Source: a virus | DNA: 22,702 nucleotides | Virus record (IMG/VR): IMGVR_UViG_3300034520_000204 | Span: 1 to 22,702 of that record | Reading direction: 5' to 3' (one strand) | Shown: one piece after another, positions 1,114 through 22,702 of the stretch | How positions within the stretch are numbered: position 1 is the stretch's first letter | Layout: each line of letters begins with the position of its first letter | Notes under the pieces: generated by a model | Database searches by the model: none | Told to the model about the DNA's origin: nothing | Seen by the model: only the letters and a program-made list of their open reading frames with translations | Translations under genes and position numbers: made by a program

Positions 1114-1131
1114 GTGAGAAAGGAGGAAAGA

Positions 1132-4100
1132 ATGGCAGAGGTTTTCAGGATCGAGATCCCAATTAGTGTCGAGGACAAGACGGATCCTGGCGTCTCCCAG
1201 GCAACGCGGAAGATAAATGGATTTGATAAGGCCAACCAAAAGACACAGGAACGGCTTAACCAGATGAACCGAACAAAATACCAGGTCGTCCTTGACGCGC
1301 TGGATAGGGCGTCGAGCATTGTCGGTAAAGTTTCATCAAAAGCACGCAGCATAGCAGGTAAGACGTTCAGCTTTACGATGAAAGTAATCGACCTGGCCAC
1401 GGCGCCGTTGAAAGCCCTATGGAACTTCGCGACGTCCATACAAGGTGCCATACTTGGTGCGACTGGTGCATTTGCCGGCATTTATAAACCGATGGAAATC
1501 GCCGGCGACTTCGAACAGACACAGATTGCATTTGAAACCATGCTAAAAAGCGCCGAGAAGGCAGAAAAATTCCTAAAGGAAGCGTCAGAGTTCGCAAACA
1601 AAACACCGTTTAAATTTCCGGAACTGATCAACAGCAGTAAGCTGCTAATGGCCTTCGGATTTGAAGCCGATAAGGTGCTGGATATGCTAAAGACCATAGG
1701 TGATACTGCCAGCGGCCTGGGAGCTGGTTCTGAAGGAATAGACCGTATAACGAGAGCACTCGGCCAGATGAGAGCAAAAGGACGAGCACAGGCAGAGGAA
1801 CTCCTGCAGCTTCAGGAGCTTGGTGTACCAGCCAACCAAATACTGCAGGAAGAGCTCGGCCTAACCGGAGAACAGATCGCAAACATCGGTAAAGAGAGTA
1901 TAGAGGCTTCGAAGGTAATAGACGCATTGCTGCGAGGCATGGATAAGCGCTTCGGTGGAATGATGGCCAACCAATCCAGGACCGCAAAGGGTATGATATC
2001 AACCCTTAAAGACACTCTCCAAAACTCACTTTTAAGGCCATGGGGACAAGGCCTGTGGGAAGGCATAAAGCCAGGACTTGAAAAACTCACCAATTGGATA
2101 GACGAGAACCAGGATATCATTGCTCAATGGGGAGAGGCCTGGAAGAAAGCCGGAGCAAACATCTCCAAGTGGGTAATGGCCAGAGTGGACGACTTAAGAA
2201 ACAGCATACAGCGTATGGTTAACTCCCAGGAATGGAAAGACGCGAAAACCTTCGGAGAAAAGCTGAAGATAGCCTGGGACAAGATTATCGCGCAGCCGTT
2301 CAACGAATGGTGGAATTCAACCGGTAAAGCCTGGCTTGCAGATAAAGCCAGCAAAATCGGTGAAGGAATAGGAACTGCGCTCTCCGCTGGATTGCTGGCT
2401 ATACTCGGAATAGACGCAAAAGGCGCCGTAGAGGACGGAACCAGCATAGGAGCTTCATTCGCTGAAGGCTTTACACGAGGATTTGACGGCAAGAAGGTAG
2501 GCGAGGCAATCCTAAACGCCATAAAGGGCGTATTCAAAGACGCGGGAACGCTGCTCCCAGGAGGAGAGAAACCAAGCAGTACATCCTGGCTGTCGGCCGG
2601 CGCAATAGTATTGGCGCTTCAAAAGCTCGGAGTTTTCAAGCTGTTAGGCAAAGGCGGAAAGGGTTTAATTAATCTCCTCGGGAAAGGGAGCAAAGATGGA
2701 GTGCCGGCAGCGACAGGATCTCTTTTCTCCGACAGCTTTATAACTTCTACTATGGCCGTTACTGCCTCTGTAGTTTACATCAACGGTCCAACGATTGGAG
2801 GAGGTGGAAGCGGGGGCAAAATCATAAACAGCATTCCAAGCTTACCTGGAGGAGGACCCGCGACAATACCAAAGCTTCCTGGAGGAGGATCGACTCTTGC
2901 TTTACCGAGTGCTGCAGGAGCTGCAGGAAAGGCAATAAATACTGTGAAGCTTGCTAATGGCACATACGTAGCGTCCGGAGGTGCGTTAACAACAGGCCTG
3001 GCCAAGTTAGGAGTAGCACTCGGAAGCGGAGCAACAACTGCCGGCGGAGCTGCAGCGGTCGGAGGTGCCTCGATTGCTGGAATTATCGGCGGCATTCTTG
3101 GACTTGGATCAGCTGGTATTGATGTTTACCAGGGAATAAAAGCGAGCAAGGCCGGCAATAGCAAAGCTGCTAAAGATGAATATGTAACAGCAGGGACCAA
3201 GGCTGGCATGGTCGGTGCGGGAGCTGCTGCAGGCGCTGCCATTGGTGCTTTATTTGGAGGCATAGGTGCGGTACCAGGAGCGCTTATTGGAGCGGGAATC
3301 GGTGGAGCCGCTTCACTTTTCGCCGGAGATAAAGCTGGCAAAGCCCTATCAGACGCAACGGACAAAGACGGAGCTTTATCAAAGTTCTGGGAAAACACCA
3401 AACAATGGGCAAGCGATACATGGGACTCCATCAAGACCGGAGCTTCAAATGCAGGATCCTGGGTATCTGAGAAATGGAACGCAGCAGGAGACTGGATAAG
3501 CAACAAATGGTCCAGTTTTAGTGATTGGTTTGATACCTCGGTATGGACGCCAGTAAGAGACGTCGGAGTTTCAGCTATTAACATAGCGGCTGGAGCTTGG
3601 AGCGAGACAAAGGACTGGGTAGGAGAAAAGTGGAGCGATTTCTCCGCATGGTTCGATGAGAGCATATGGACCCCGGTCAAAACAGGCGCCCAGGCGGCAG
3701 GTGAATGGATAAGCGAAAGATGGAGCGAGGCCAAAACCTGGGTAAGCGAGATATGGGGAACCGTAAGCACCTGGTTTGATGAAACAGTATGGACGCCGGT
3801 AAAAACTGCAGCACAGACAGCAGGAGCATGGCTGGGAGAGCAGTTCACAGCGGCAAAGAACGCCATAAGCGAGGCCTGGTCCGGAGTGTCCGACTGGTTC
3901 TCCAGTAACGTATGGGAGCCCATCAAGACCGGAGCAAGCGAGGCATGGAAATGGGTAGGTGAAAAACTCAGCGGTATCGGTGAATGGATCGGCGACAAGT
4001 GGCAGAGCTTCAAGGACTGGCTCGGAGGCCTGGGCCAAAAAGGCTCAAAAGAAACCGGCCTAACAACCAGCAAAGGCAAAGGCAGCATTCTCGAACACGC

Positions 4101-4518
4101 ATACGGCGGAATTATGACAAAACCGCACATGGGCATCGTGGCCGAGGACGGAGCCGAAAGCCTTATCCCGTTAAGCCCAAGCAAGAGACAAAGAGGCCTT
4201 GATTTATGGCAGCGGACCGGTGAGCTCCTCGGAGTCAGGACCTACGAAGACGGCGGAATAGTAGGCGAGGAACCGGACGGAATCCCGGTAGCCTCTGCAA
4301 CCGGAAAAGCCGGCCAGAACATCACCATCAAGGTGGAAGTCAAGGCAGAGCCTAAATTCACGATTGAAGGCTCCGGAGACGCCACCGATGAAAACAAGGT
4401 ACTGGCTGTCCTGAAGGCCTACATCCGCGAAATGACCGACGACATAGGAGACGAGCTGGCAGAGAGACTGGCTCGCATATTCGCTAATATGCCGGTGAAA
4501 GGAGGAGCTGAAGCTTGA
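1132..4518 (+). CDS. Phage tail tape measure protein, copy 1 (1128 aa)
   Basis: Sets tail length and occupies the tail lumen before DNA ejection. ATG 1132 is chosen because AAAGGAGG precedes it and it matches the start of copy 2; a GTG at 1114 is less likely. The tape-measure N-terminal domain spans about residues 115-305 (SEGIDRITRALGQMRAKGRA, LQELGVPANQIL). Glycine/alanine-rich hydrophobic stretches follow at about 530-550, 638-662 and 687-733, typical of tape measure segments thought to enter the membrane. A tryptophan-rich region (about 758-960) contains repeats with a strict 41-residue period: WTPV or WEPI at 804, 845, 886 and 927. The C-terminal motif GIVAEDGAESLIPLSP (about 1000-1016) is common in these proteins. 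From residue 193 to the end it is identical to copy 2; the first 192 residues differ at about 28 positions. Confidence 0.95.
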   Translation: MAEVFRIEIPISVEDKTDPGVSQATRKINGFDKANQKTQERLNQMNRTKYQVVLDALDRASSIVGKVSSKARSIAGKTFSFTMKVIDLATAPLKALWNFATSIQGAILGATGAFAGIYKPMEIAGDFEQTQIAFETMLKSAEKAEKFLKEASEFANKTPFKFPELINSSKLLMAFGFEADKVLDMLKTIGDTASGLGAGSEGIDRITRALGQMRAKGRAQAEELLQLQELGVPANQILQEELGLTGEQIANIGKESIEASKVIDALLRGMDKRFGGMMANQSRTAKGMISTLKDTLQNSLLRPWGQGLWEGIKPGLEKLTNWIDENQDIIAQWGEAWKKAGANISKWVMARVDDLRNSIQRMVNSQEWKDAKTFGEKLKIAWDKIIAQPFNEWWNSTGKAWLADKASKIGEGIGTALSAGLLAILGIDAKGAVEDGTSIGASFAEGFTRGFDGKKVGEAILNAIKGVFKDAGTLLPGGEKPSSTSWLSAGAIVLALQKLGVFKLLGKGGKGLINLLGKGSKDGVPAATGSLFSDSFITSTMAVTASVVYINGPTIGGGGSGGKIINSIPSLPGGGPATIPKLPGGGSTLALPSAAGAAGKAINTVKLANGTYVASGGALTTGLAKLGVALGSGATTAGGAAAVGGASIAGIIGGILGLGSAGIDVYQGIKASKAGNSKAAKDEYVTAGTKAGMVGAGAAAGAAIGALFGGIGAVPGALIGAGIGGAASLFAGDKAGKALSDATDKDGALSKFWENTKQWASDTWDSIKTGASNAGSWVSEKWNAAGDWISNKWSSFSDWFDTSVWTPVRDVGVSAINIAAGAWSETKDWVGEKWSDFSAWFDESIWTPVKTGAQAAGEWISERWSEAKTWVSEIWGTVSTWFDETVWTPVKTAAQTAGAWLGEQFTAAKNAISEAWSGVSDWFSSNVWEPIKTGASEAWKWVGEKLSGIGEWIGDKWQSFKDWLGGLGQKGSKETGLTTSKGKGSILEHAYGGIMTKPHMGIVAEDGAESLIPLSPSKRQRGLDLWQRTGELLGVRTYEDGGIVGEEPDGIPVASATGKAGQNITIKVEVKAEPKFTIEGSGDATDENKVLAVLKAYIREMTDDIGDELAERLARIFANMPVKGGAEA

Positions 4519-4997
4519 AAATCGATTTAGAGGGTACTGTTAATGAAATAGTGGAGGAAATAACCTATCAGGCTAAATCAAGGGCATTCCGTGCAGCCAA
4601 CGAGCTCAGGAATTCAGCATTGACTGTCCTCCGGGGAGAGCGCTCTGGAAAGGTTTATAAAAAGCCTGGCACATACGGAAGCAGAATGACAAAGCAAACG
4701 AAGAATTTGCTTAAAGATTATGGCCATAAATTGCGAGGTGGACAATTATACAGAGCTTCAGCACCAGGGGAACCGCCTGCGAACCGTAGCGGGAACCTGC
4801 GCTTAAGCTGGAGACCGCAAACCGCATCCGAGCGAATAGGCAAGACCGTAACAATAAAACCGGCAATTACTACCAATGTAAAGTATGCTCCATATCTCGA
4901 AGAGGGAACCGATAGAATGGCTCCAAGACCATTTGAAGACCCTATTATCGAAAGAGCAATGCCTCGTATTCGCCGAATCTTCAAAGAGCCGTATTAG
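4515..4997 (+). CDS. HK97-gp10-like tail completion / minor tail protein, copy 1
   Basis: The 160-residue basic protein starts at TTG 4515, overlapping the tape measure TGA (4516-4518), with AAAGGAGG at about 4498-4505. The C-terminal pattern with APYLEEGTDRMAPRPFEDP is the hallmark of HK97-gp10-like proteins (an aromatic, then E-x-GT, then a PRPF block), and the LRLSW segment with PANRSG before it also fits. Family knowledge: these proteins act at the head-tail connector or as tail completion proteins, and are usually encoded before the major tail protein. Here the gene lies after the tape measure, so the order is unusual. It is co-translated with the tape measure gene and followed by a strong terminator, so it ends this transcription unit. 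An identical gene occurs at 22115-22597. Confidence 0.8.
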   Translation: MKIDLEGTVNEIVEEITYQAKSRAFRAANELRNSALTVLRGERSGKVYKKPGTYGSRMTKQTKNLLKDYGHKLRGGQLYRASAPGEPPANRSGNLRLSWRPQTASERIGKTVTIKPAITTNVKYAPYLEEGTDRMAPRPFEDPIIERAMPRIRRIFKEPY

Positions 4998-5008
4998 GTT
5001 TAACCTTA

Positions 5009-5046
5009 AAAGTAAAAGGGCGGAATAAAATCCGCTCTTTTGCTTT
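5009..5046 (+). terminator. Strong terminator after the tail genes, copy 1
   Basis: A 16-bp stem (5009-5024 with 5031-5046; two G-U pairs, no mismatches) closes a 6-base loop. The descending arm contains CTCTTTTGCTTT. It lies 12 bases after the HK97-gp10-like stop. Just downstream are a GGACATGTCC palindrome (5059-5068) and a small hairpin CGGGTA/TACCCG (5127-5132/5140-5145). Confidence 0.8.
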
Positions 5047-5229
5047 ACTTGTTTGGACGGACATGTCCATATCAAAAATGCAGGCGAGAAACGGCCAGAT
5101 TTGACTTGTACGGAACGAATTTAAAGCGGGTAAGGTAAATACCCGTCTTGGCGTTAAAATTCAAAATAAAGGGAAAATACGCGCTTAAAATGCTTTTGAT
5201 TATTCATGGTAGTTAAAGAGCAATAAAAA

Positions 5230-5276: not shown

Positions 5277-5792
5277 TTATACATCGATGAGCTCGATCTT
5301 GAAATAAACCGTACCTATGTACGTACCGTATGATGTAGAACTAGTAATTTGGGGCTTGAATTTCAGCGCGCCATATGCCTTCGGATTTGTGCTGCCATCA
5401 GCAAATGTTGCAACTACTTCACTCAAACCAGTTATATCCTCAAAAGAGCTACTGGTAGGCAATCCACGCAGAATTCTGCAAGATATTCTTTGTTCGTTTG
5501 CAGTCCCTTTATCTTTGTATAAATAAAAATTGCCACCGTTTTCGTATGTAGCTGCACCATCAATCGTAATCTTAACATTTTTACCGCTTCCTATGTCCAT
5601 TTTATTAGCCGAGAATGTGAATCCCTCGCTATCATTGATAGATATAGAGGCAGGGATATTGATTGTATACTCGGGCGAATAGGTGTACGATATCGTTGTA
5701 TTTGCAGATGTCTGGTTTGCAAAAGCATCCATTGGCGATATACTGCAAACCAGTATGGCTGCAAGCAGAAAAGAGAATATTCTTTTTATCAT
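5277..5792 (-). CDS. Secreted protein with signal peptide, unknown function (171 aa)
   Basis: Residues 1-25 form a Sec signal peptide: basic start (MIKR), a hydrophobic core and an A23-F24-A25 cleavage site before N26. The cysteine in the core lacks a proper lipobox, so this is probably not a lipoprotein. The mature part of about 145 residues is Ser/Thr/Gly-rich and beta-strand-like, opening with a YTINIPASISI segment of the sort seen in many secreted Ig-like surface proteins of Firmicutes, and ending in a TVYFKIELIDV strand. No LPXTG motif or membrane anchor is present. ATG 5792 follows GGAGG and overlaps the stop of the upstream anchored protein (ATGA), so the two are coupled. It looks like cargo expressed from the prophage rather than a virion protein. 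Function unknown. Confidence 0.82.
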   Translation of the reverse strand: MIKRIFSFLLAAILVCSISPMDAFANQTSANTTISYTYSPEYTINIPASISINDSEGFTFSANKMDIGSGKNVKITIDGAATYENGGNFYLYKDKGTANEQRISCRILRGLPTSSSFEDITGLSEVVATFADGSTNPKAYGALKFKPQITSSTSYGTYIGTVYFKIELIDV

Positions 5793-6271
5793 GGCTTAAC
5801 CTCCAATTTAAAAATAGTTTTGGCACCGTTCAATTCTTTGATTTCTTTCATGCCATAGCATGAATAACTTAAGATGGCACCTTCGTACATTCCGGGTTTA
5901 AGCTCTTGAGAGAGCTCAATAGAGTTAAGGACTTGCCCGGGCGCAAGCAAACCGGACTCATAAAGCTGCGTTCCATCGGGGAGCATAATTGCAATTCTCA
6001 TATAACAATTATTTTGTTTTGGGTTACCGAGCTCGATATTTTGAACCTTTTGACCTGCTTTCATAACTATATGATCATATCCCGGGATTGCTATCATACC
6101 GGAGGCACCGCTGTTATTCGATGATATGTCGACATCGGAGAGTGTCTGCACAGAGTCATCGGGTTTGGACTTGAGCACATCATTGAAATTGTAACCGATT
6201 GCTGCGGCTACAAACAAAGCTAAAGCTATACCGAATGACATAGTTATTTTTTTTACGTTTCTGTTTTCAAT
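5789..6271 (-). CDS. Membrane-anchored extracellular protein, probable partner of the secreted protein
   Basis: I place the start at ATT 6271. AAAGGAG (6281-6287) lies 9 bases before it, and the ten extra residues (ENRNVKKIT) supply the positive charges expected before the membrane segment. The in-frame ATG 6241 has only A-rich sequence upstream and would begin right at the hydrophobic stretch. From the ATT the protein has 160 residues: one N-terminal transmembrane segment (about 13-27, GIALALFVAAAIGY), a Ser/Asp-rich linker, then a beta-rich domain with MIAIPGYDHIVMKAGQKVQ, LAPGQVLNSIELSQELKPG and FKLEVKP. That is an Ig/CARDB-like strand pattern, likely on the outer surface. It overlaps the next gene by ATGA. 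I do not recognise a named family. Co-expression suggests the pair works together outside the cell. Confidence 0.78.
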   Translation of the reverse strand: MENRNVKKITMSFGIALALFVAAAIGYNFNDVLKSKPDDSVQTLSDVDISSNNSGASGMIAIPGYDHIVMKAGQKVQNIELGNPKQNNCYMRIAIMLPDGTQLYESGLLAPGQVLNSIELSQELKPGMYEGAILSYSCYGMKEIKELNGAKTIFKLEVKP

Positions 6272-6309
6272 GATTTATCACTCCTTTCAGCTGGCTTGTC
6301 TACAAAAAT

Positions 6310-6338
6310 ACTATAGAAGCTCCAGATTATTAAGGCAA
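6310..6338 (-). promoter_or_regulatory. Putative promoter of the secreted/anchored gene pair
   Basis: On the minus strand TTGCCT (6338-6333) and TATAGT (6315-6310) are separated by 17 bases, about 40 bases upstream of the proposed ATT start. It overlaps the end of the DUF6431 gene, so the pair could be transcribed separately from it. Confidence 0.5.
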
Positions 6339-6695
6339 ACTGGGTGGGTATTTTCCCTTTTTCCATCTTCGGATCGTCGAATCATCTGCCGGGCATGAAT
6401 CTGAACGGCCAGCCATAACATCTTCTATAAGCCTGGCTTCATAATGCTTTTTAGGAGCCATAAAATCCGGAAGCTCAAGATGCAGTTTTTCGCAGCCTGG
6501 ACACTTTAGCCGGCGCAACCTGTACCAGAAGATCTGGCCAGAACTATCGACGACATGACGGGCTCTTGTATCATATCCGGAGAGCAGCTGGCCACAATCA
6601 GGGCAAAAAGGAGCATCTTTATTCCGGATCTTATAAACCTTACGGGTCTCATCATATTCCACGGTGTAATTAATAGCAATGATCAGGATAACCAC
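6330..6695 (-). CDS. DUF6431-like zinc-ribbon / HTH protein
   Basis: A protein of about 120 residues with two CxxC pairs (C31/C34 in CPDCGQLLSGYD, C65/C68 in CPGC), an LELPDFMAPKKHYEARLIEDV block and a DSTIRRWKKG end. That is the zinc-ribbon plus HTH layout I associate with DUF6431 proteins, which resemble transposase N-terminal domains and are common in Lachnospiraceae and relatives. The only standard start in frame is GTG 6695, but its G is also the last G of AGGAGG, so ribosome spacing there is zero. CTG 6686 (8 bases after AGGAGG), ATC 6683 or ATT 6680 would fit better and remove three to five residues. No transposase partner or terminal inverted repeats were found nearby, so this is a solo gene. 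Function unknown; DNA binding is likely from the fold. Confidence 0.72.
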   Translation of the reverse strand: MVILIIAINYTVEYDETRKVYKIRNKDAPFCPDCGQLLSGYDTRARHVVDSSGQIFWYRLRRLKCPGCEKLHLELPDFMAPKKHYEARLIEDVMAGRSDSCPADDSTIRRWKKGKYPPSLP

Positions 6696-6718
6696 CTCCT
6701 CATCCGCTGAACGTCATT

Positions 6719-6736
6719 AAATACGCCAACGTATTT
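6719..6736. other. AAATACG-CCAA-CGTATTT inverted repeat
   Basis: A perfect 7-bp inverted repeat with a 4-base loop, about 24 bases upstream of the DUF6431 gene (minus strand) and 95 bases before the next plus-strand gene. It could be an operator for either divergent unit. No promoter was confidently placed beside it. Confidence 0.35.
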
Positions 6737-6830
6737 GGAGCTGGTCCTGAATGTTACCCACCTGGTATGCCTTAATCATGGGAGCTGATTGCATTAACAT
6801 GAATTCAAACTAAAGCAAGGGGAGAAAACC

Positions 6831-7100
6831 ATGGAATATGGAACGATACTCGCAACCAGAGGTGTAGCTGATGAGATGAAGCAAAACCCGATATTTGCTC
6901 AAGAAGTCATTGCAGCCTTTAACCGGTACCGGAAAAATGACTGGGGAGACCTTTGCCAAGAGGATAAAGAACTGAATGATCTGGCTGCCAGGACAGGCGA
7001 GCGAATACTGGCCGCATATGAGACCAGCAAGGGAAAGATCTGGATTATTACCGAATGGGATAGATCTGCGACAACAATCCTCTTTCCAAGTGAATATTAA
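6831..7100 (+). CDS. Small conserved phage/plasmid accessory protein (89 aa)
   Basis: ATG 6831 follows AAGGGGAG. The 89-residue protein has a recognisable pattern: TRGVADEM near the start, then NDWGDLCQEDKELND, GERILAAYETSKGKIWIITE and a WDRSATTILFPSEY end. Proteins with this pattern are widespread on plasmids and in prophages of Firmicutes and other phyla. They are often labelled plasmid-related or, without support, type I restriction subunit. No catalytic motif is visible, and I would not trust a restriction assignment. It stands alone, bounded downstream by two terminators (7162-7207 and 7253-7289). Confidence 0.8.
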   Translation: MEYGTILATRGVADEMKQNPIFAQEVIAAFNRYRKNDWGDLCQEDKELNDLAARTGERILAAYETSKGKIWIITEWDRSATTILFPSEY

Positions 7101-7292: not shown

Positions 7293-8042
7293 TTAAGGCA
7301 GATTGGGGAAAGGAATATGAAGTAATCTCATAATTTCCTTTTCAGACTCCAGAACGCGTTCAGCAATAAAATCCATAAAAGGCTGATCATCATCATGGGC
7401 CCGCTCCAGTAAGCTTATATACTCATGGCGCAAGACCGGTGGAATTATAGCCAGCATATAACCGTCTTGAATAAGCGCTGTATTCATAAGCAACCGGGCA
7501 ACTCTCCCGTTTCCATCTATGAAAGGATGAATAAATACAAACCGCTTATGCAACTGGGCGGCAAATTGGACCGGATGGTATTTGTTACGCGCGGAGCATG
7601 CCCACTGGAATAGCTTTTTCATTTCCTCTTCTATCCGTTCTACTGGGCATACTTCATATTTTGAGCCAGTTATAAAGACTGGGCGATCGCGGTATTTTCC
7701 TGCTGCCTCGGCATCGATACCTGTATAGAATATCCGGTGCATTGTAAGGGCGTCTTCTTCGGTTATTTGATAACTATTAAGCAATGTAAACATGAAATCA
7801 TAAGCCTTTGCATGTCCCAGTGCTTCGAAGGTATCTCGAAGAGGCTTTCCTCCGACAGTCAATCCATCTTCCAGAAGGATCTTTGTTTCACTTAAAGTGA
7901 GAGTATTTCCTTCAAGAGCATTACTGGACCATGTAAGGCCTATGCGGTAATAATTTTTAATTTCATGAAGCAAATGGCCTTCAAAGGGACGCTTTTCATC
8001 AATGGCCAGCTTGTAGCGGTCGATTTTTTCATATAAATTCAT
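7293..8042 (-). CDS. Fic-domain protein, probable AMP-transferase, with N-terminal autoinhibitory motif
   Basis: The 249-residue protein carries the complete Fic catalytic motif HPFIDGNGRVAR at residues 172-183 (H172 base, N178 and R180/R183 nucleotide contacts). An upstream S40-N-A-L-E44-G45 matches the (S/T)xxxE(G/N) inhibitory helix. Family knowledge: Fic enzymes transfer AMP (sometimes other groups) from a nucleotide to hydroxyl side chains of target proteins. Those with the inhibitory helix in the same chain N-terminal to the core (class II) hold themselves inactive until relieved. The fold is full-length, with no C-terminal winged helix. ATG 8042 overlaps the stop of the zinc-ribbon gene (ATGA). 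With the HTH gene before it, this forms a three-gene operon on the minus strand. Its target cannot be read from the sequence; prophage defence or host modulation is inference. Confidence 0.92.
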   Translation of the reverse strand: MNLYEKIDRYKLAIDEKRPFEGHLLHEIKNYYRIGLTWSSNALEGNTLTLSETKILLEDGLTVGGKPLRDTFEALGHAKAYDFMFTLLNSYQITEEDALTMHRIFYTGIDAEAAGKYRDRPVFITGSKYEVCPVERIEEEMKKLFQWACSARNKYHPVQFAAQLHKRFVFIHPFIDGNGRVARLLMNTALIQDGYMLAIIPPVLRHEYISLLERAHDDDQPFMDFIAERVLESEKEIMRLLHIPFPNLP

Positions 8043-8236
8043 TGATTATCACCGTCCCCCGTAATTACTTTCCGTGTGGTAATAATGCCGCTTGTTACTT
8101 CGCTGCCATTTTCAACACCACACCAGGGACAATTTATGCTTTCTCGCTCTTTCCCGCCGGGATATCCTGCGTTTGATATGGTCACAGAAAAGCGTTTACC
8201 ACAGGCTATACACTTGTATATACCATCATTGAACAA
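8039..8236 (-). CDS. Small zinc-ribbon protein in the Fic operon (65 aa)
   Basis: Start TTG 8236, with AAGGGGG 9 bases upstream. The 65 residues hold two knuckles, CIACGKRF (C9, C12) and INCPWCG (C36, C39), the layout of a C4 zinc ribbon, followed by a polar tail. There are no catalytic motifs. It lies 17 bases downstream of the HTH gene and overlaps the Fic gene by four bases, so it is co-translated with Fic. It may be a Fic-associated adaptor or a stand-alone nucleic-acid binder; this cannot be decided from sequence. Similar small ribbons are common in phage early regions, so a direct link to Fic is not certain. Confidence 0.75.
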   Translation of the reverse strand: MFNDGIYKCIACGKRFSVTISNAGYPGGKERESINCPWCGVENGSEVTSGIITTRKVITGDGDNQ

Positions 8237-8253
8237 TTTGATAACCCCCTTTT

Positions 8254-8469
8254 TTAGTATGTGACTTTCTCACCAGATGGCAGTATAAAAGAGCCCTCGT
8301 ATTTACATCCGGCAGCTTCGGCTATTTTTTTCAACTCATCGACAGTGAAAGTTTCCCTCTTCATCTTTTGATTAAAGGCCTGTGGACTTTTCCCGGACAT
8401 CCTTCCAAGTTCGGAGACACTTATTCCAAGCTTTACGCATAGAATTTTCAGCTGTTCAGACACTGACAT
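8254..8469 (-). CDS. Small XRE-family HTH regulator (71 aa)
   Basis: The protein is little more than one lambda-repressor-like helix-turn-helix (about residues 5-60: LKILCVKLGISVSELGRMSG, KSPQAFNQKMKRE), followed by a short strand-rich end. ATG 8469 has AAAGGAG upstream. It is the first gene of a minus-strand operon with the zinc-ribbon and Fic genes and faces the plus-strand early genes across a 154-base region that carries promoters in both directions and repeated ATAAAC elements. By position it should autoregulate and repress the divergent early promoter. At 71 residues it has no dimerisation or cleavage domain, so it is Cro-sized rather than CI-sized. Confidence 0.85.
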   Translation of the reverse strand: MSVSEQLKILCVKLGISVSELGRMSGKSPQAFNQKMKRETFTVDELKKIAEAAGCKYEGSFILPSGEKVTY

Positions 8470-8493
8470 ATAACCACTCCTTTCGATATTCTC

Positions 8494-8522
8494 ATTATAA
8501 ACGAATTTATTTAATAAATCAA
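8494..8522 (-). promoter_or_regulatory. Promoter of the HTH / zinc-ribbon / Fic operon
   Basis: On the minus strand TTGATT (8522-8517), a 17-base spacer and a perfect TATAAT (8499-8494), 25 bases upstream of the HTH start codon. The ATAAACGA element on the plus strand overlaps the -10 box, where a repressor could act. Confidence 0.8.
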
Positions 8523-8529
8523 CGATAAT

Positions 8530-8605
8530 ATTTCTATTTTATTGAGAATCGTTAAATTGGTCATTGACACCATAAACAATATCGTTTATATTATAAACAG
8601 AAATA
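8530..8605 (+). promoter_or_regulatory. Early promoter and operator-like repeats facing the HTH operon
   Basis: TTGACA (8564-8569), a 17-base spacer and TATATT (8587-8592) lie 32 bases before the start at 8624. The imperfect palindrome ATAAACAATATCGTTTAT (8571-8588) fills the spacer and touches the -10, so a bound repressor would block the promoter. Related half-sites occur at 8498-8505 and 8593-8598. ATTCTCA (from about 8489) and TGAGAAT (from about 8543) form a wider inverted pair. Confidence 0.75.
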
Positions 8606-8623: not shown

Positions 8624-8899
8624 ATGAGTACAAATGAATTACTAAGCAAAGTTAGAGAACTTAAAGAGCTTCAGGCAATGGCAGAAGAGCTTCAGGCAGA
8701 GATAAATAGTATTCAGGATGCGATTAAAGCTGAGATGAGCGCCAGAGGAGTTGATGAAATGGTTGTTGATGTTTTCAAGATCCGTTGGAAGGTTGTAAAA
8801 AGCAGCCGCTTTGATACAGCAGCATTTAAGGCGACACACGCCGAGCTTTATAAGCAATACATGAAGGAAACGGAAACCCGCCGCTTCACGGTGGCATAA
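8624..8899 (+). CDS. Small coiled-coil phage early protein (91 aa)
   Basis: The first gene of the plus-strand early run, starting at ATG 8624 behind AAAGGGAG. Residues about 1-40 form a charged helix with leucine/alanine heptads (LRELKELQAMAEELQAEI in character), likely a coiled coil. The rest is a compact domain with KIRWKVVKSSRFD and a TETRRFTVA end. Proteins of this pattern (helix, ARGVDEM, W-K-V-x-SSR-FD, RRF-V-A) are frequent in clostridial prophage early regions, but no function is known to me. It is directly under the repressible promoter at 8564-8592, so it is among the first genes expressed when repression is lifted. Confidence 0.8.
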   Translation: MSTNELLSKVRELKELQAMAEELQAEINSIQDAIKAEMSARGVDEMVVDVFKIRWKVVKSSRFDTAAFKATHAELYKQYMKETETRRFTVA

Positions 8900-12275: not shown

Positions 12276-12398
12276 AAAAATTTTTTAAACTATAAAAATG
12301 GCAATAATTTTGATAATATGAATAATAGAAATAGCAGAAAACAATAGGAATAACGACGAATAAAACTTTAACAATTGAATGGGAATAGACGTCAAAAT

Positions 12399-12466: not shown

Positions 12467-13576
12467 TTATTCTAAAATACCCGGATTTTTATCTGATTTT
12501 TGGCAAATATTAGGAGAAAATAACTCGTTCAGTTTACTGGAAACTTCCCCGTGCTTATTGGGGTATAAGTGGGCATATATTTCCAGAGTGGTCTCCACAT
12601 TTTCATGGCCAAGACGCTCTGATATCAGCAGCGGGGAAAAACCAAGTTCAATCAATAACGATGCGTGGGAATGACGGATGTCATGAACACGTATCTTTTT
12701 TACCCCTGATTTCTTGCAACCGCGGTCCATTTCACTTTGAAGGTAGTGCTTTGTATATTCAAAAAGGCGGTCCGAAGGCTCATAGTCCACCAGGCGGCCA
12801 GCGTAATCCTTCAGGATATCCAGGAGGAAATCCGGTACAGTTATTACCCGGCGGCTCTTTGGAGTTTTTGGAGGAGAGATCACATCCTCTCCTCCGATCC
12901 TGGCGTAGCTCTTTGTTATGCTTATCGTTTTAGCTTCAAAATTTACATCATTCAGAGTAAGGGCCAGGAGCTCTCCGGAGCGCATACCGGTCCAGAATAA
13001 GGTGTTAAAAATAGCATACGATGCAGGCTTATCTGAAACAGCTTCAACAAAAAGCTGAAATTCATCTTTTGTCCAGAACTGCATAGCCTCGGCGTTCTTT
13101 TTACCGATAGATCCAGCGACAGCTGCAGGATTGGTACTCAGTCCATAATAGCGCTTGGCAAAATTGAAAATGGCCGAAAGCTGATTATTTATCGTCTTGA
13201 GGTATGTTGGAGAATACTCGGCGTCATCATCCAGGAGCTCATTCTGCCATTTGCGTACCGTAGCGGCTGTTATAGCATTTACAGGTAAATCTTTAAAAGT
13301 TGGAAGTATTTTAGACTCAATGAGGTACCTCTTACTTTCGTATGTCGTGGAGCGGAGCCGCGACTTACAATCTTCCATGTATAGCTCCACCATAGAGCCG
13401 AAGCTCATGTCACAGCTGCCGCTTTGTTTTTTTAGAAAGTCTCGCTCGTACTGGACAGCTTCGGATTTCTTCTGAAAGCCTCTCTTTTTATGCTGACGCA
13501 CGACGCCGGCCCAGTCTTTGTAGCGGAACCAGACATACCACGTTTTTCTCTCTTCATCTTTGTAAACCGGCAACAA
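12467..13576 (-). CDS. int: Tyrosine recombinase, phage integrase
   Basis: The 369-residue integrase has all domains: an N-terminal arm-binding region (about 1-55, YVWFRYKDWAGVVRQHKKRG), a SAM-like core-binding domain (about 58-150) and the catalytic domain (about 165-345). Catalytic residues are R199 (WTGMRSGELLAL), K237, H298-x-x-R301, H324 (RLGHENVETT) and nucleophile Y334 (LEIYAH). Length and order are complete, so it should be active. The start is TTG 13576 or the adjacent TTG 13573, the latter better spaced after GGGAGG. It inserts and, with a directionality factor, excises the element at an att site. No excisionase gene was recognised. The attachment core cannot be identified without the other end; the repeats near its 3' end are candidate arm sites. 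Confidence 0.95.
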   Translation of the reverse strand: MLPVYKDEERKTWYVWFRYKDWAGVVRQHKKRGFQKKSEAVQYERDFLKKQSGSCDMSFGSMVELYMEDCKSRLRSTTYESKRYLIESKILPTFKDLPVNAITAATVRKWQNELLDDDAEYSPTYLKTINNQLSAIFNFAKRYYGLSTNPAAVAGSIGKKNAEAMQFWTKDEFQLFVEAVSDKPASYAIFNTLFWTGMRSGELLALTLNDVNFEAKTISITKSYARIGGEDVISPPKTPKSRRVITVPDFLLDILKDYAGRLVDYEPSDRLFEYTKHYLQSEMDRGCKKSGVKKIRVHDIRHSHASLLIELGFSPLLISERLGHENVETTLEIYAHLYPNKHGEVSSKLNELFSPNICQKSDKNPGILE

Positions 13577-14229: not shown

Positions 14230-14790
14230 TTAGATTTCATGGTCAATCCTAAGAATTTCAGCAACTATTCTTGAATCAAGCTTTGAATTATTGTTTCTTA
14301 AAAGAAATGTTCTTATCGCTTCATCACGGTCTGAATAATCTCTATAGTTCAAAAGGATATCCAAAATACGGTCAAAGAGTTCTATATCATTATTGAGTTT
14401 TTCATAAATACAGAAAAACAACTCTCCACAACCTTCATCATCATACCGGTTCATTTTCTCTTTATAAAAATACTGTGCCTTTTCCAAACATGCTCTTAAT
14501 TTACGATAAATTTTTATTGAAAACTCGGAAGCTTCATTTGAACTGTCTGAGTCAAAGGCCAGAGCTTTCTCCTCTGAAGAATTCTTAAAAATGGTTCGGC
14601 CAAGCAAGTAGTCAGTTGAAACATTAAAGAATTCAGATAGTTTTATGAGAATATCAAAAGAAGGTTCTCTTAAGCCATTTTCATAATTAGAAATCACTTG
14701 CTTACTAAGTCCAAGAACCTCGGCTATATCTTCCTGTCTATAATTTTTTTCATTCCTTAGGCTTCTTAATGTATTAGGGAAATCACTCAT
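14230..14790 (-). CDS. CI-type XRE repressor without a peptidase domain
   Basis: The 186-residue regulator has a lambda-type HTH at about residues 6-60 (RQEDIAEVLGLSKQVISNYE) ending in the common FFNVSTDYLLGR. The C-terminal part (about 90-186) is all helical and acidic (IYRKLRACLEKAQYFYKEKM). No S24 peptidase Ser-Lys motif is present, so RecA-stimulated self-cleavage is not expected; induction must use an antirepressor or another route. ATG 14790 has AAAGGAG about 10 bases upstream. It faces the Cro-like gene across a 153-base region with near-consensus promoters in both directions. It is thus the likely maintenance repressor of this module. Confidence 0.88.
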   Translation of the reverse strand: MSDFPNTLRSLRNEKNYRQEDIAEVLGLSKQVISNYENGLREPSFDILIKLSEFFNVSTDYLLGRTIFKNSSEEKALAFDSDSSNEASEFSIKIYRKLRACLEKAQYFYKEKMNRYDDEGCGELFFCIYEKLNNDIELFDRILDILLNYRDYSDRDEAIRTFLLRNNNSKLDSRIVAEILRIDHEI

Positions 14791-14943: not shown

Positions 14944-15180
14944 ATGTTGATTATTACTGCTCGTCCTAATGCCCTACAGTCTGCCAGGCTGCGTAAAGGA
15001 TATAGCTTAAGGGAAATGGCTAAAATTTCAGGAGTAAACTTTTCTACAATTTCCAAGACAGAAAAAGGAGTTCAAAAACGGGTTACCCCAAGGGTAGCCA
15101 GACAAATATGTGAAGCATTGGAAGCCTCATTTGACGATCTTTTTATCTTAACACCTGCAGATCAGCAAATGGAGGTGTAA
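14944..15180 (+). CDS. Cro-like XRE HTH protein (78 aa)
   Basis: ATG 14944 follows AAAGGGGGTAATCAAA. Residues about 8-66 form the HTH domain (ALQSARLRKGYSLREMAKIS, VNFSTISKTEKG), ending in FDDLFIL. It is short and has no other domain. Divergent to the CI-type repressor and first in the operon with the initiator and helicase loader, it takes the Cro position. The next gene starts four bases after its stop. Role by position: shut off the repressor side, or tune early transcription. Confidence 0.85.
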   Translation: MLIITARPNALQSARLRKGYSLREMAKISGVNFSTISKTEKGVQKRVTPRVARQICEALEASFDDLFILTPADQQMEV

Positions 15181-18688: not shown

Positions 18689-18731
18689 AACCCATGCAAT
18701 TAATTAAAATAATTCAGAAAGGAGGATAACA

Positions 18732-21700
18732 ATGGGTGAGGTTTTTAGAATTGAGATACCAATAAGCATTAAGGATAACACAGATCCCGGAGTGTCCCAG
18801 GCTAAAAATAAGCTGAATGCCTTTGATAAAGCAAGTCAAAGGACCCAGGAACGGCTGGAACAGATGAATAAGACCCAATATCAGATCATCCTTGAGGCTG
18901 TAGATAGAGCTTCAAGCATAGTAGGTACTGTTTCATCCAAAGCGCGGAGCATCGCGGGTAAGACGTTCAGCTTTACGATGAAAGTAATTGACCTGGCCAC
19001 GGCACCATTAAGGGCCCTATGGAACTTTGCGACGTCCATACAAGGTGCCATACTCGGTGCGACCGGTGCATTTGCCGGCATTTATAAACCGATGGATATA
19101 GCTGCGGACTTCGAACAGACACAGATCGCATTTGAAACCATGCTAAAAAGCGCCGAGAAGGCCCAGCAGTTCCTGAAGGAAGCGTCAGAGTTCGCGAATA
19201 AAACACCGTTTGAGTTTCCGGAGCTAATTAACAGTAGTAAACTGATGCTGGCATTCGGATTTGAGGCAGATAAGGTACTCGACATATTGAAAGTTATCGG
19301 CGATACGGCCAGCGGCCTGGGAGCTGGTTCTGAAGGAATAGACCGTATAACGAGAGCACTCGGCCAGATGAGAGCAAAAGGACGAGCACAGGCAGAGGAA
19401 CTCCTGCAGCTTCAGGAGCTTGGTGTACCAGCCAACCAAATACTGCAGGAAGAGCTCGGCCTAACCGGAGAACAGATCGCAAACATCGGTAAAGAGAGTA
19501 TAGAGGCTTCGAAGGTAATAGACGCATTGCTGCGAGGCATGGATAAGCGCTTCGGTGGAATGATGGCCAACCAATCCAGGACCGCAAAGGGTATGATATC
19601 AACCCTTAAAGACACTCTCCAAAACTCACTTTTAAGGCCATGGGGACAAGGCCTGTGGGAAGGCATAAAGCCAGGACTTGAAAAACTCACCAATTGGATA
19701 GACGAGAACCAGGATATCATTGCTCAATGGGGAGAGGCCTGGAAGAAAGCCGGAGCAAACATCTCCAAGTGGGTAATGGCCAGAGTGGACGACTTAAGAA
19801 ACAGCATACAGCGTATGGTTAACTCCCAGGAATGGAAAGACGCGAAAACCTTCGGAGAAAAGCTGAAGATAGCCTGGGACAAGATTATCGCGCAGCCGTT
19901 CAACGAATGGTGGAATTCAACCGGTAAAGCCTGGCTTGCAGATAAAGCCAGCAAAATCGGTGAAGGAATAGGAACTGCGCTCTCCGCTGGATTGCTGGCT
20001 ATACTCGGAATAGACGCAAAAGGCGCCGTAGAGGACGGAACCAGCATAGGAGCTTCATTCGCTGAAGGCTTTACACGAGGATTTGACGGCAAGAAGGTAG
20101 GCGAGGCAATCCTAAACGCCATAAAGGGCGTATTCAAAGACGCGGGAACGCTGCTCCCAGGAGGAGAGAAACCAAGCAGTACATCCTGGCTGTCGGCCGG
20201 CGCAATAGTATTGGCGCTTCAAAAGCTCGGAGTTTTCAAGCTGTTAGGCAAAGGCGGAAAGGGTTTAATTAATCTCCTCGGGAAAGGGAGCAAAGATGGA
20301 GTGCCGGCAGCGACAGGATCTCTTTTCTCCGACAGCTTTATAACTTCTACTATGGCCGTTACTGCCTCTGTAGTTTACATCAACGGTCCAACGATTGGAG
20401 GAGGTGGAAGCGGGGGCAAAATCATAAACAGCATTCCAAGCTTACCTGGAGGAGGACCCGCGACAATACCAAAGCTTCCTGGAGGAGGATCGACTCTTGC
20501 TTTACCGAGTGCTGCAGGAGCTGCAGGAAAGGCAATAAATACTGTGAAGCTTGCTAATGGCACATACGTAGCGTCCGGAGGTGCGTTAACAACAGGCCTG
20601 GCCAAGTTAGGAGTAGCACTCGGAAGCGGAGCAACAACTGCCGGCGGAGCTGCAGCGGTCGGAGGTGCCTCGATTGCTGGAATTATCGGCGGCATTCTTG
20701 GACTTGGATCAGCTGGTATTGATGTTTACCAGGGAATAAAAGCGAGCAAGGCCGGCAATAGCAAAGCTGCTAAAGATGAATATGTAACAGCAGGGACCAA
20801 GGCTGGCATGGTCGGTGCGGGAGCTGCTGCAGGCGCTGCCATTGGTGCTTTATTTGGAGGCATAGGTGCGGTACCAGGAGCGCTTATTGGAGCGGGAATC
20901 GGTGGAGCCGCTTCACTTTTCGCCGGAGATAAAGCTGGCAAAGCCCTATCAGACGCAACGGACAAAGACGGAGCTTTATCAAAGTTCTGGGAAAACACCA
21001 AACAATGGGCAAGCGATACATGGGACTCCATCAAGACCGGAGCTTCAAATGCAGGATCCTGGGTATCTGAGAAATGGAACGCAGCAGGAGACTGGATAAG
21101 CAACAAATGGTCCAGTTTTAGTGATTGGTTTGATACCTCGGTATGGACGCCAGTAAGAGACGTCGGAGTTTCAGCTATTAACATAGCGGCTGGAGCTTGG
21201 AGCGAGACAAAGGACTGGGTAGGAGAAAAGTGGAGCGATTTCTCCGCATGGTTCGATGAGAGCATATGGACCCCGGTCAAAACAGGCGCCCAGGCGGCAG
21301 GTGAATGGATAAGCGAAAGATGGAGCGAGGCCAAAACCTGGGTAAGCGAGATATGGGGAACCGTAAGCACCTGGTTTGATGAAACAGTATGGACGCCGGT
21401 AAAAACTGCAGCACAGACAGCAGGAGCATGGCTGGGAGAGCAGTTCACAGCGGCAAAGAACGCCATAAGCGAGGCCTGGTCCGGAGTGTCCGACTGGTTC
21501 TCCAGTAACGTATGGGAGCCCATCAAGACCGGAGCAAGCGAGGCATGGAAATGGGTAGGTGAAAAACTCAGCGGTATCGGTGAATGGATCGGCGACAAGT
21601 GGCAGAGCTTCAAGGACTGGCTCGGAGGCCTGGGCCAAAAAGGCTCAAAAGAAACCGGCCTAACAACCAGCAAAGGCAAAGGCAGCATTCTCGAACACGC

Positions 21701-22118
21701 ATACGGCGGAATTATGACAAAACCGCACATGGGCATCGTGGCCGAGGACGGAGCCGAAAGCCTTATCCCGTTAAGCCCAAGCAAGAGACAAAGAGGCCTT
21801 GATTTATGGCAGCGGACCGGTGAGCTCCTCGGAGTCAGGACCTACGAAGACGGCGGAATAGTAGGCGAGGAACCGGACGGAATCCCGGTAGCCTCTGCAA
21901 CCGGAAAAGCCGGCCAGAACATCACCATCAAGGTGGAAGTCAAGGCAGAGCCTAAATTCACGATTGAAGGCTCCGGAGACGCCACCGATGAAAACAAGGT
22001 ACTGGCTGTCCTGAAGGCCTACATCCGCGAAATGACCGACGACATAGGAGACGAGCTGGCAGAGAGACTGGCTCGCATATTCGCTAATATGCCGGTGAAA
22101 GGAGGAGCTGAAGCTTGA
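18732..22118 (+). CDS. Phage tail tape measure protein, copy 2 (1128 aa)
   Basis: Same length and domain plan as copy 1: tape-measure N-terminal domain, glycine-rich hydrophobic stretches, 41-residue tryptophan repeats and the AEDGAESLIPLSP end. ATG 18732 follows AAAGGAGGATAAC. Residues 1-192 differ from copy 1 at about 28 sites (for example A2G, T25K, R26N, K66T, K161E), many conservative. From residue 193 onward there is no difference in protein or DNA. The first 192 codons also carry many silent changes, so the split is abrupt at nucleotide level. It is preceded by early regulatory genes and a 28-codon ORF, not by tail genes. Its product would be functional by sequence, but in this context no tail tube or chaperone gene accompanies it. 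Confidence 0.95.
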   Translation: MGEVFRIEIPISIKDNTDPGVSQAKNKLNAFDKASQRTQERLEQMNKTQYQIILEAVDRASSIVGTVSSKARSIAGKTFSFTMKVIDLATAPLRALWNFATSIQGAILGATGAFAGIYKPMDIAADFEQTQIAFETMLKSAEKAQQFLKEASEFANKTPFEFPELINSSKLMLAFGFEADKVLDILKVIGDTASGLGAGSEGIDRITRALGQMRAKGRAQAEELLQLQELGVPANQILQEELGLTGEQIANIGKESIEASKVIDALLRGMDKRFGGMMANQSRTAKGMISTLKDTLQNSLLRPWGQGLWEGIKPGLEKLTNWIDENQDIIAQWGEAWKKAGANISKWVMARVDDLRNSIQRMVNSQEWKDAKTFGEKLKIAWDKIIAQPFNEWWNSTGKAWLADKASKIGEGIGTALSAGLLAILGIDAKGAVEDGTSIGASFAEGFTRGFDGKKVGEAILNAIKGVFKDAGTLLPGGEKPSSTSWLSAGAIVLALQKLGVFKLLGKGGKGLINLLGKGSKDGVPAATGSLFSDSFITSTMAVTASVVYINGPTIGGGGSGGKIINSIPSLPGGGPATIPKLPGGGSTLALPSAAGAAGKAINTVKLANGTYVASGGALTTGLAKLGVALGSGATTAGGAAAVGGASIAGIIGGILGLGSAGIDVYQGIKASKAGNSKAAKDEYVTAGTKAGMVGAGAAAGAAIGALFGGIGAVPGALIGAGIGGAASLFAGDKAGKALSDATDKDGALSKFWENTKQWASDTWDSIKTGASNAGSWVSEKWNAAGDWISNKWSSFSDWFDTSVWTPVRDVGVSAINIAAGAWSETKDWVGEKWSDFSAWFDESIWTPVKTGAQAAGEWISERWSEAKTWVSEIWGTVSTWFDETVWTPVKTAAQTAGAWLGEQFTAAKNAISEAWSGVSDWFSSNVWEPIKTGASEAWKWVGEKLSGIGEWIGDKWQSFKDWLGGLGQKGSKETGLTTSKGKGSILEHAYGGIMTKPHMGIVAEDGAESLIPLSPSKRQRGLDLWQRTGELLGVRTYEDGGIVGEEPDGIPVASATGKAGQNITIKVEVKAEPKFTIEGSGDATDENKVLAVLKAYIREMTDDIGDELAERLARIFANMPVKGGAEA

Positions 22119-22597
22119 AAATCGATTTAGAGGGTACTGTTAATGAAATAGTGGAGGAAATAACCTATCAGGCTAAATCAAGGGCATTCCGTGCAGCCAA
22201 CGAGCTCAGGAATTCAGCATTGACTGTCCTCCGGGGAGAGCGCTCTGGAAAGGTTTATAAAAAGCCTGGCACATACGGAAGCAGAATGACAAAGCAAACG
22301 AAGAATTTGCTTAAAGATTATGGCCATAAATTGCGAGGTGGACAATTATACAGAGCTTCAGCACCAGGGGAACCGCCTGCGAACCGTAGCGGGAACCTGC
22401 GCTTAAGCTGGAGACCGCAAACCGCATCCGAGCGAATAGGCAAGACCGTAACAATAAAACCGGCAATTACTACCAATGTAAAGTATGCTCCATATCTCGA
22501 AGAGGGAACCGATAGAATGGCTCCAAGACCATTTGAAGACCCTATTATCGAAAGAGCAATGCCTCGTATTCGCCGAATCTTCAAAGAGCCGTATTAG
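22115..22597 (+). CDS. HK97-gp10-like tail completion / minor tail protein, copy 2
   Basis: Base-for-base the same as 4515-4997: 160 residues, TTG start overlapping the tape measure TGA, and the APYLEEGTDRMAPRPFEDP signature near the end. Its presence shows that the duplication is a segment crossing gene borders rather than a single duplicated gene. As in copy 1, it is placed after the tape measure gene, although relatives usually lie between head and tail-tube genes. There is no sign of relaxed selection between the copies (no differences), which fits a very recent event or an assembly artefact. Confidence 0.8.
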   Translation: MKIDLEGTVNEIVEEITYQAKSRAFRAANELRNSALTVLRGERSGKVYKKPGTYGSRMTKQTKNLLKDYGHKLRGGQLYRASAPGEPPANRSGNLRLSWRPQTASERIGKTVTIKPAITTNVKYAPYLEEGTDRMAPRPFEDPIIERAMPRIRRIFKEPY

Positions 22598-22608
22598 GTT
22601 TAACCTTA

Positions 22609-22646
22609 AAAGTAAAAGGGCGGAATAAAATCCGCTCTTTTGCTTT
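22609..22646 (+). terminator. Strong terminator after the tail genes, copy 2
   Basis: Exact copy of the 16-bp-stem hairpin at 5009-5046 (here 22609-22624 with 22631-22646), 12 bases after the HK97-gp10-like stop. Confidence 0.8.
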
Positions 22647-22702
22647 ACTTGTTTGGACGGACATGTCCATATCAAAAATGCAGGCGAGAAACGGCCAGAT
22701 TT

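Follow-up and report, generated by a model that had tools for sequence, protein, structure and literature searches.

A Fic gene that sits downstream of a small helix-turn-helix (HTH) gene and a zinc-ribbon gene in viral DNA raises the questions of whether the three form one dedicated system, what controls it, and which part of the arrangement travels between mobile elements. We addressed these questions in a 22.7-kb IMG/VR record, referred to here in its whole length as the window, and in its relatives. The preliminary description of this DNA read the HTH, the ribbon, and Fic as three coupled genes, a coupling that our analysis supports. All three open reading frames (ORFs) lie where it placed them, on the minus strand; HTH and ribbon are separated by 17 nt, and ribbon and Fic overlap by 4 nt (Table 1).

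Table 1. Positions in the window of the Fic operon, its predicted control sites, and the integration and switch genes of the element
Feature	Position	Strand	Basis or remark
Fic, 249 aa, class II	7293..8042	-	PF02661 E=2.8e-22, above Pfam cut-off; motifs invariant in homologs; nearest solved structures FICD, BtFic, CdFic
CxxC...CxxC zinc-ribbon protein, 65 aa, TTG start, optional operon member	8039..8236	-	weak Zn_ribbon_8 match, E=6.5e-4, under Pfam cut-off; alignment
HTH_26/XRE regulator, 71 aa, conserved Fic partner, head of other operons	8254..8469	-	HTH_26 match, E=1.2e-5, above Pfam cut-off; neighborhoods; alignment
Promoter of HTH-ribbon-Fic operon, TTGATT-17-TATAAT	8494..8522	-	10/12 matches; -35 TTGATT at 8522, -10 ending at 8494
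Predicted operator copy 1, TAAACGAATTTATTTA	8498..8513	.	spacer and -10 edge of HTH promoter; pattern count, related upstream regions
Divergent orf91 promoter, TTGACA-17-TATATT	8564..8592	+	11/12 matches; TTGACA at 8564, TATATT ending at 8592; kept in distant elements
Predicted operator copy 2, TAAACAATATCGTTTA	8573..8588	.	spacer and -10 edge of divergent orf91 promoter; pattern count, distant elements
orf91, first gene of divergent operon	8624..8899	+	phrog_6244 E=4.5e-17; phrog_434 partial
Tyrosine integrase, adjoins attachment core	12467..13576	-	phrog_1 E=1e-76
CI-like repressor	14230-14790	-	element's own switch, with Cro-like gene
Cro-like gene	14944-15180	+	element's own switch, with CI-like repressor

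Fic is very probably an AMP-transferase, as judged from its motifs and kinship. The catalytic motif H172-PFIDGNG-R180 agrees with HPFx[D/E]GN[G/K]R, and S40-NAL-E44-G45, N-terminal to the Fic core, agrees with the inhibitory pattern [S/T]xxxE[G/N], which bears out the earlier reading of a complete enzyme with its inhibitory helix. S40, N41, A42, E44, and G45 are invariant across an alignment of 49 homologs, and the inhibitory Glu is, as far as sequences can tell, as strongly conserved as the catalytic residues. The protein has the Fic fold (AF2 pTM of 0.82, with the model uncertain at residues 45-73; structure match to FICD with E=1.5e-11 and TMq of 0.75), and its nearest solved relatives, by sequence as well as by fold, are FICD, BtFic, and CdFic, which are class II enzymes with an N-terminal inhibitory helix. 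PADLOC models PDC-S04 (E=1.5e-31) and SoFic (E=3.5e-25) match it, but its score of 23.9 bits falls far below the NCBIfam SoFic equivalog cut-off of 550. Some copies of the enzyme may be inactive, since 5 of 58 homologs have lost a catalytic residue yet keep the inhibitory motif; these are L013, L025, L038, L050, and L067, with the changes D176Y, R180Q, N178T, and, twice, D176N.

The two small proteins upstream have looser affiliations. For the HTH, the nearest PDB profile match is the phage 434 repressor (E=0.003), and an NCBIfam search matched no model, so that the cut-off of TIGR02612 was not reached. The controller (C) proteins of restriction-modification (RM) systems were considered as a possible identity and rejected for want of PDB kinship, as none is among the PDB profile matches at E<=0.1. 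The zinc-ribbon call rests on the CxxC...CxxC pattern because the Zn_ribbon_8 match is below cut-off; no Pfam or NCBIfam model over cut-off names a family for this protein, and its PDB profile matches are short zinc-finger fragments.

Which of these genes belong together is best seen in genomes that were searched without selection for neighborhood. Among the 113 genomes in the class of G009 there are 20 distinct HTH genes, and in 18 cases a same-strand Fic gene comes next; every HTH copy of at least 79% identity (15/15) precedes Fic, and 18 of the 23 Fic places have the HTH upstream. In the class of G007 (37 genomes), close Fic homologs occur in six genomes and the HTH in the same six, in one case on split contigs. 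The ribbon was found in only 5 of the 113 genomes, and 13 of the 18 HTH-Fic pairs are without a detectable one. As the neighborhood recurs in many independent genomes, it goes beyond chance, and the co-occurrence in genomes unselected for it marks HTH-Fic as the unit, with the ribbon optional. Taken over these genomes, the recurring unit is a real and mobile HTH-Fic pair and not a trio. The conserved HTH-zinc ribbon-Fic neighborhoods that the preliminary description suggested looking for thus exist with respect to HTH and Fic but not with the ribbon as a fixed member, and we rejected the trio as the unit, because most pairs lack the ribbon.

The association is not obligatory for the enzyme. 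We pooled 100 distinct Fic homologs from all searches for a count of neighbors and a tree: 40 have the HTH upstream (18 of these together with the ribbon), 1 has the ribbon only, 57 have neither gene, and 2 are cut short. With 57 homologs lacking an HTH of the same family upstream, Fic does not need the HTH, and on the tree the HTH label requires many gains or losses. In G009 itself, about 6 kb separates one HTH-Fic pair from a second (L131, 4617-5642 and 10898-12944), with HTH identities of 38% and 82% and Fic identities of 60% and 75%.

The control region suggests what the HTH does. The 154 nt that separate HTH from orf91 contain two divergent sigma-A-like promoters, and each holds, between its -35 and -10, one copy of the inverted repeat TAAAY-N6-RTTTA, in support of the repressible promoter proposed earlier. 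The window contains two occurrences of the pattern where 0.14 would be expected, a count that is no independent test, as the pattern was derived from the window sequences and their relatives. Its recurrence elsewhere is stronger evidence, though the relatives also informed the pattern: 36 of 38 distinct regions upstream of HTH genes of at least 74% identity, several of them near-copies of one another, contain it (35 at the HTH-adjacent site), against an expectation of 0.00-0.04 per region. It is missing from L012 and L176. Upstream of the more distant HTH homologs the exact motif is seldom found. The operator is also present where the cargo is not Fic (L116-L124), including HTH genes that head nucleases in place of Fic, and distant elements preserve the paired promoter-operator layout with its spacing of about 75 nt. 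The operator goes with the HTH and not with Fic, which is what autoregulation of the HTH gene would predict, and the HTH probably binds the operator and represses from it.

Several comparisons show that the genes behind the HTH are exchangeable. HTH genes at 74-77% identity head either a GIY-YIG gene or a gene whose 447-aa product has a C-terminus resembling HNH/homing endonucleases. In the class of G160, where 391 unselected genomes were searched, HTH homologs at 49-59% identity are followed by genes for C5 methyltransferases, N4/N6 methyltransferases, an HsdM, and a DarG macrodomain, and an AlbA_2 gene stands behind one homolog at 40%; the methyltransferase partners are thus found at 49-59% identity and not among the closest HTH copies. 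Homologs of the element's Cro served as a control in these genomes: judged by eye from the eight readable cases, the genes behind them are small DNA-binding-like, replication-like, or transporter-like, with no methyltransferase or defense partner visible. The preliminary description had counted replacement of Fic by unrelated genes without pattern as evidence against its system. Replacement does occur, with nuclease-like genes at 74-77% HTH identity, but it follows a pattern of nucleases, methyltransferases, and defense genes. Between L016 and L104, promoter and HTH share 93-97% DNA identity, while ribbon and Fic mostly share 50-75%, and there is a mosaic boundary at the HTH end.

The HTH family extends to further settings. 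A protein family starting MISPESYYEEYLKGK, with no Pfam match, stands behind the HTH in several genomes (L161, L183, L185, and L187). HTH homologs at 51-52% identity head an operon of nucleotidyltransferase, methyltransferase, and ant(6)-Ia genes in Enterococcus plasmids and a streptococcal prophage (L173, L174, and L175). The HTH has matches in 306 plasmid records, 296 of them from Enterococcus; these plasmid searches reached Enterococcus resistance plasmids and no Fic.

Relatives of the window reveal the element that carries the operon, a conserved stretch of about 17.6 kb. Its order is integrase, CI-like repressor, Cro-like gene, replication genes, sigma factor, tape measure, and neck/tail-completion gene, followed by p171-p150-DUF6431 on the minus strand, orf89 on the plus strand, Fic-ribbon-HTH on the minus strand, orf91 to o11849 on the plus strand, and the attachment core. 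This core (12374-12388) is identical to the guaA 3' end, as it is in L126 near 17854 and in L141 near 81, and its flank in L126 encodes the GuaA C-terminus; the element appears to insert at guaA, restoring the C-terminus of GuaA. Tape measure and neck/tail-completion families are its only structural genes found, an incomplete set as in satellites, and we call the element satellite-like because no capsid, portal, or large terminase was recognized among the ORFs tested. Close copies occur in Thermoanaerobacterium and Thermoanaerobacter and distant ones in Desulfoscipio. The neighbors of the Fic operon at window 5277-7100, orf89 and DUF6431-p150-p171, accompany it over large distances (Fic at 60%, p171 at 30% identity), and neither p171 nor p150 matched a library family.

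The gene order, the motifs, the operator with its co-inheritance with the HTH, and the exchange of cargo behind it can be read from the sequences themselves. To explain them, we propose, with slightly better than even confidence, that a portable autorepressor cassette controls a self-inhibited Fic cargo, with an optional third gene, in a satellite-like element. The cassette would consist of the 71-aa XRE regulator and TAAAY-N6-RTTTA between the -35 and -10 of its own promoter, carried by the element of about 17.6 kb, and through the twin operators the HTH would repress its own operon and orf91 together. The cargo would be a catalytically intact class II Fic held off by its N-terminal inhibitory helix. 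In a naive cell, transcription would proceed until enough HTH had accumulated to bring both operons down to a low level; loss of repression upon infection, induction, or a rise in copy number would let Fic protein accumulate and AMPylate a cellular target or one in a competing phage. A role of Fic in defense or in competition between mobile elements is suggested by the defense-type cargo behind the same controller, by the PADLOC PDC-S04 and SoFic matches, and by Fic homologs in streptococcal satellites (24 Streptococcus phage records, nearly all of satellite phages), and we regard the case for that role as evenly balanced.

Other explanations place the weight on different parts of the operon. 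Were the ribbon an essential adaptor or substrate of Fic, one could understand why, in the unselected genomes, it always lies between HTH and Fic where it is found, and why it overlaps the Fic start by 4 nt. Its absence from 13 of 18 pairs speaks against this, however, as do the loss of Cys36, one of its four cysteines, in L014, its decay in L004, L005, and L028, where a gene has been inserted, and the occurrence of a relative apart from Fic in L106, so that such a role is highly improbable and the ribbon is, on this comparison, an optional operon member. The insertion, present in two host groups, is a gene for a membrane-type protein of 277-293 aa between the decayed ribbon and Fic (upstream of Fic in L004 and L005; 4104-4937 in L028). 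It is also unlikely that the operon is a type II toxin-antitoxin module with the HTH as an antitoxin that binds and neutralizes Fic while autoregulating. A small upstream HTH gene, an autoregulatory operator, a toxin-like cargo, and a mobile context would suit such a module, and Xre-Fic pairs are among listed toxin-antitoxin-like pairs (PMC2701414), but the same HTH family accompanies unrelated cargo (methyltransferases, HsdM, and nucleases), the HTH hardly changes where Fic has diverged to about 60%, unlike co-evolving antitoxins, and a class II Fic brings its own inhibitory helix.

The kinship of the enzyme allows a third view, in which Fic, like FICD, toggles AMPylation and deAMPylation of a host protein and tunes the stress physiology of its carrier, with no part in defense. 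FICD is the nearest solved relative by sequence and fold, and the inhibitory Glu is invariant, kept as strongly as the catalytic residues; even so, the mobile-element setting, the defense-type cargo under the same controller, and the PDC-S04 and SoFic matches make this view unlikely. The preliminary description instead tied Fic to the lysis-lysogeny switch, with its operon as the lysogenic arm opposed by early genes. Divergent promoters with shared operators fit this idea, as does the position of Fic homologs in two streptococcal satellite phages, directly behind the repressor in Javan547 and one gene further in Javan759. However, the element keeps its own CI-like/Cro-like pair, together with the integrase, some 4-6 kb from the Fic locus, which led us to reject a switch at that locus; in addition, because both operators lie inside promoters, joint repression is predicted and not a reciprocal switch, and orf91 is not a Cro-like regulator. 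The operon does face a divergent operon, as described, but the term "early genes" was loose for what orf91 heads, an accessory/replication-type operon. Coupling to lysis and lysogeny is thus very unlikely, and the autorepressor cassette remains the reading that we prefer.

Parts of this cassette have precedents. TIGR02612 and TIGR02613, mobile mystery proteins A and B, are an HTH-Fic pair that we take to be one of them, with only passing mentions in the literature. As in the Xre-Fic/Doc pairs, an HTH gene lies upstream of a Fic-family gene in mobile DNA, but Fic from the window scores 39.2 bits against the TIGR02613 cut-off of 124.4, and the HTH is without an NCBIfam model. The remark in the preliminary description that it knew of no described system with this exact trio is not supported as a claim of novelty, as Xre adjoining Fic/Doc was tabulated in 2009 by Makarova, with 22 cases (PMC2701414). 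On the HTH-operator family, in turn, we found no paper in the open-access literature. Against this background, the operon is best described as a portable HTH cassette, predicted to regulate itself, that carries Fic as one of its cargoes within a satellite-like element.

With the class II enzymes FICD/HYPE, Clostridium difficile Fic 0569, and Bacteroides thetaiotaomicron BT_2513, Fic shares the N-terminal [S/T]xxxE[G/N], the HPFxDGNGR core, and the Fic fold, but it is short, single domain, co-transcribed with a separate HTH regulator, and located in a mobile element. SoFic, an antiphage Fic that works through abortive infection, is followed by a small antitoxin (PMC12249575). SoFic and PDC-S04 share the Fic core and the inhibitory helix with the protein described here, which at about 249 aa lacks the C-terminal domain of the two-domain SoFic (about 360 aa) and is partnered by an upstream HTH rather than the small downstream anti-Sofic. 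For the HTH, by analogy, the closest working counterparts are the RM controller proteins and RptR, a 79-aa protein that binds TAGCTA; both are small DNA-binding proteins that head an RM or defense operon with an operator at their own promoter (PMC3874152, PMC12255303). The likeness, a small HTH that heads RM genes, holds for HTH homologs at 49-59% identity and not for the window copy. In contrast to C proteins and RptR, the position of the HTH operators inside the promoter suggests pure repression, and the PDB matches of the HTH profile include no C protein.

A broader possibility, to which we give somewhat less than even weight, is that the HTH and TAAAY-N6-RTTTA form a family, not described in the papers searched, of general plug-in controllers whose cargo serves defense and conflict in the mobile elements of clostridia and their relatives. 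One such cargo would be a self-inhibited Fic AMP-transferase, used by a tape-measure-bearing satellite against competing phages and co-repressed with that satellite's divergent operon via twin operators. If this is true, a single operator would flag conflict genes in many mobile elements of clostridia, and the DNA behind the HTH and its operator would be a place to search for new defense cargo. Fic enzymes have so far been known as toxins, as effectors that act on the host, and, in a few cases, as abortive-infection genes; the proposal would tie them to phage satellites, where Fic homologs recur in both streptococcal satellites and clostridial elements.

Putative tape measure genes were recently reported in diverse putative phage satellites (PMC12987554). 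The element resembles such satellites (PLE11 and cf-PICIs with tmp) in having an integrase, CI, replication genes, and a tape measure gene of its own, but differs in that no capsid, portal, or terminase was recognized in it and in its host, a thermophilic clostridium. Tape measure and neck/tail-completion genes lie at window 1114-4997 and 18732-22597 and are also present in L125-L127, L129, and L131-L133. The window contains a direct repeat of 3.99 kb, 97.2% identical, with its copies (1117-5102 and 18716-22702) one element length apart and the first 1116 nt different; possible sources are a circle whose reading runs on into a variant, two elements in tandem, and a join made in assembly. Just upstream of one tape measure copy lies an HNH endonuclease gene (376-1071), possibly a homing insertion, and the N-termini of the two tape measure copies differ.
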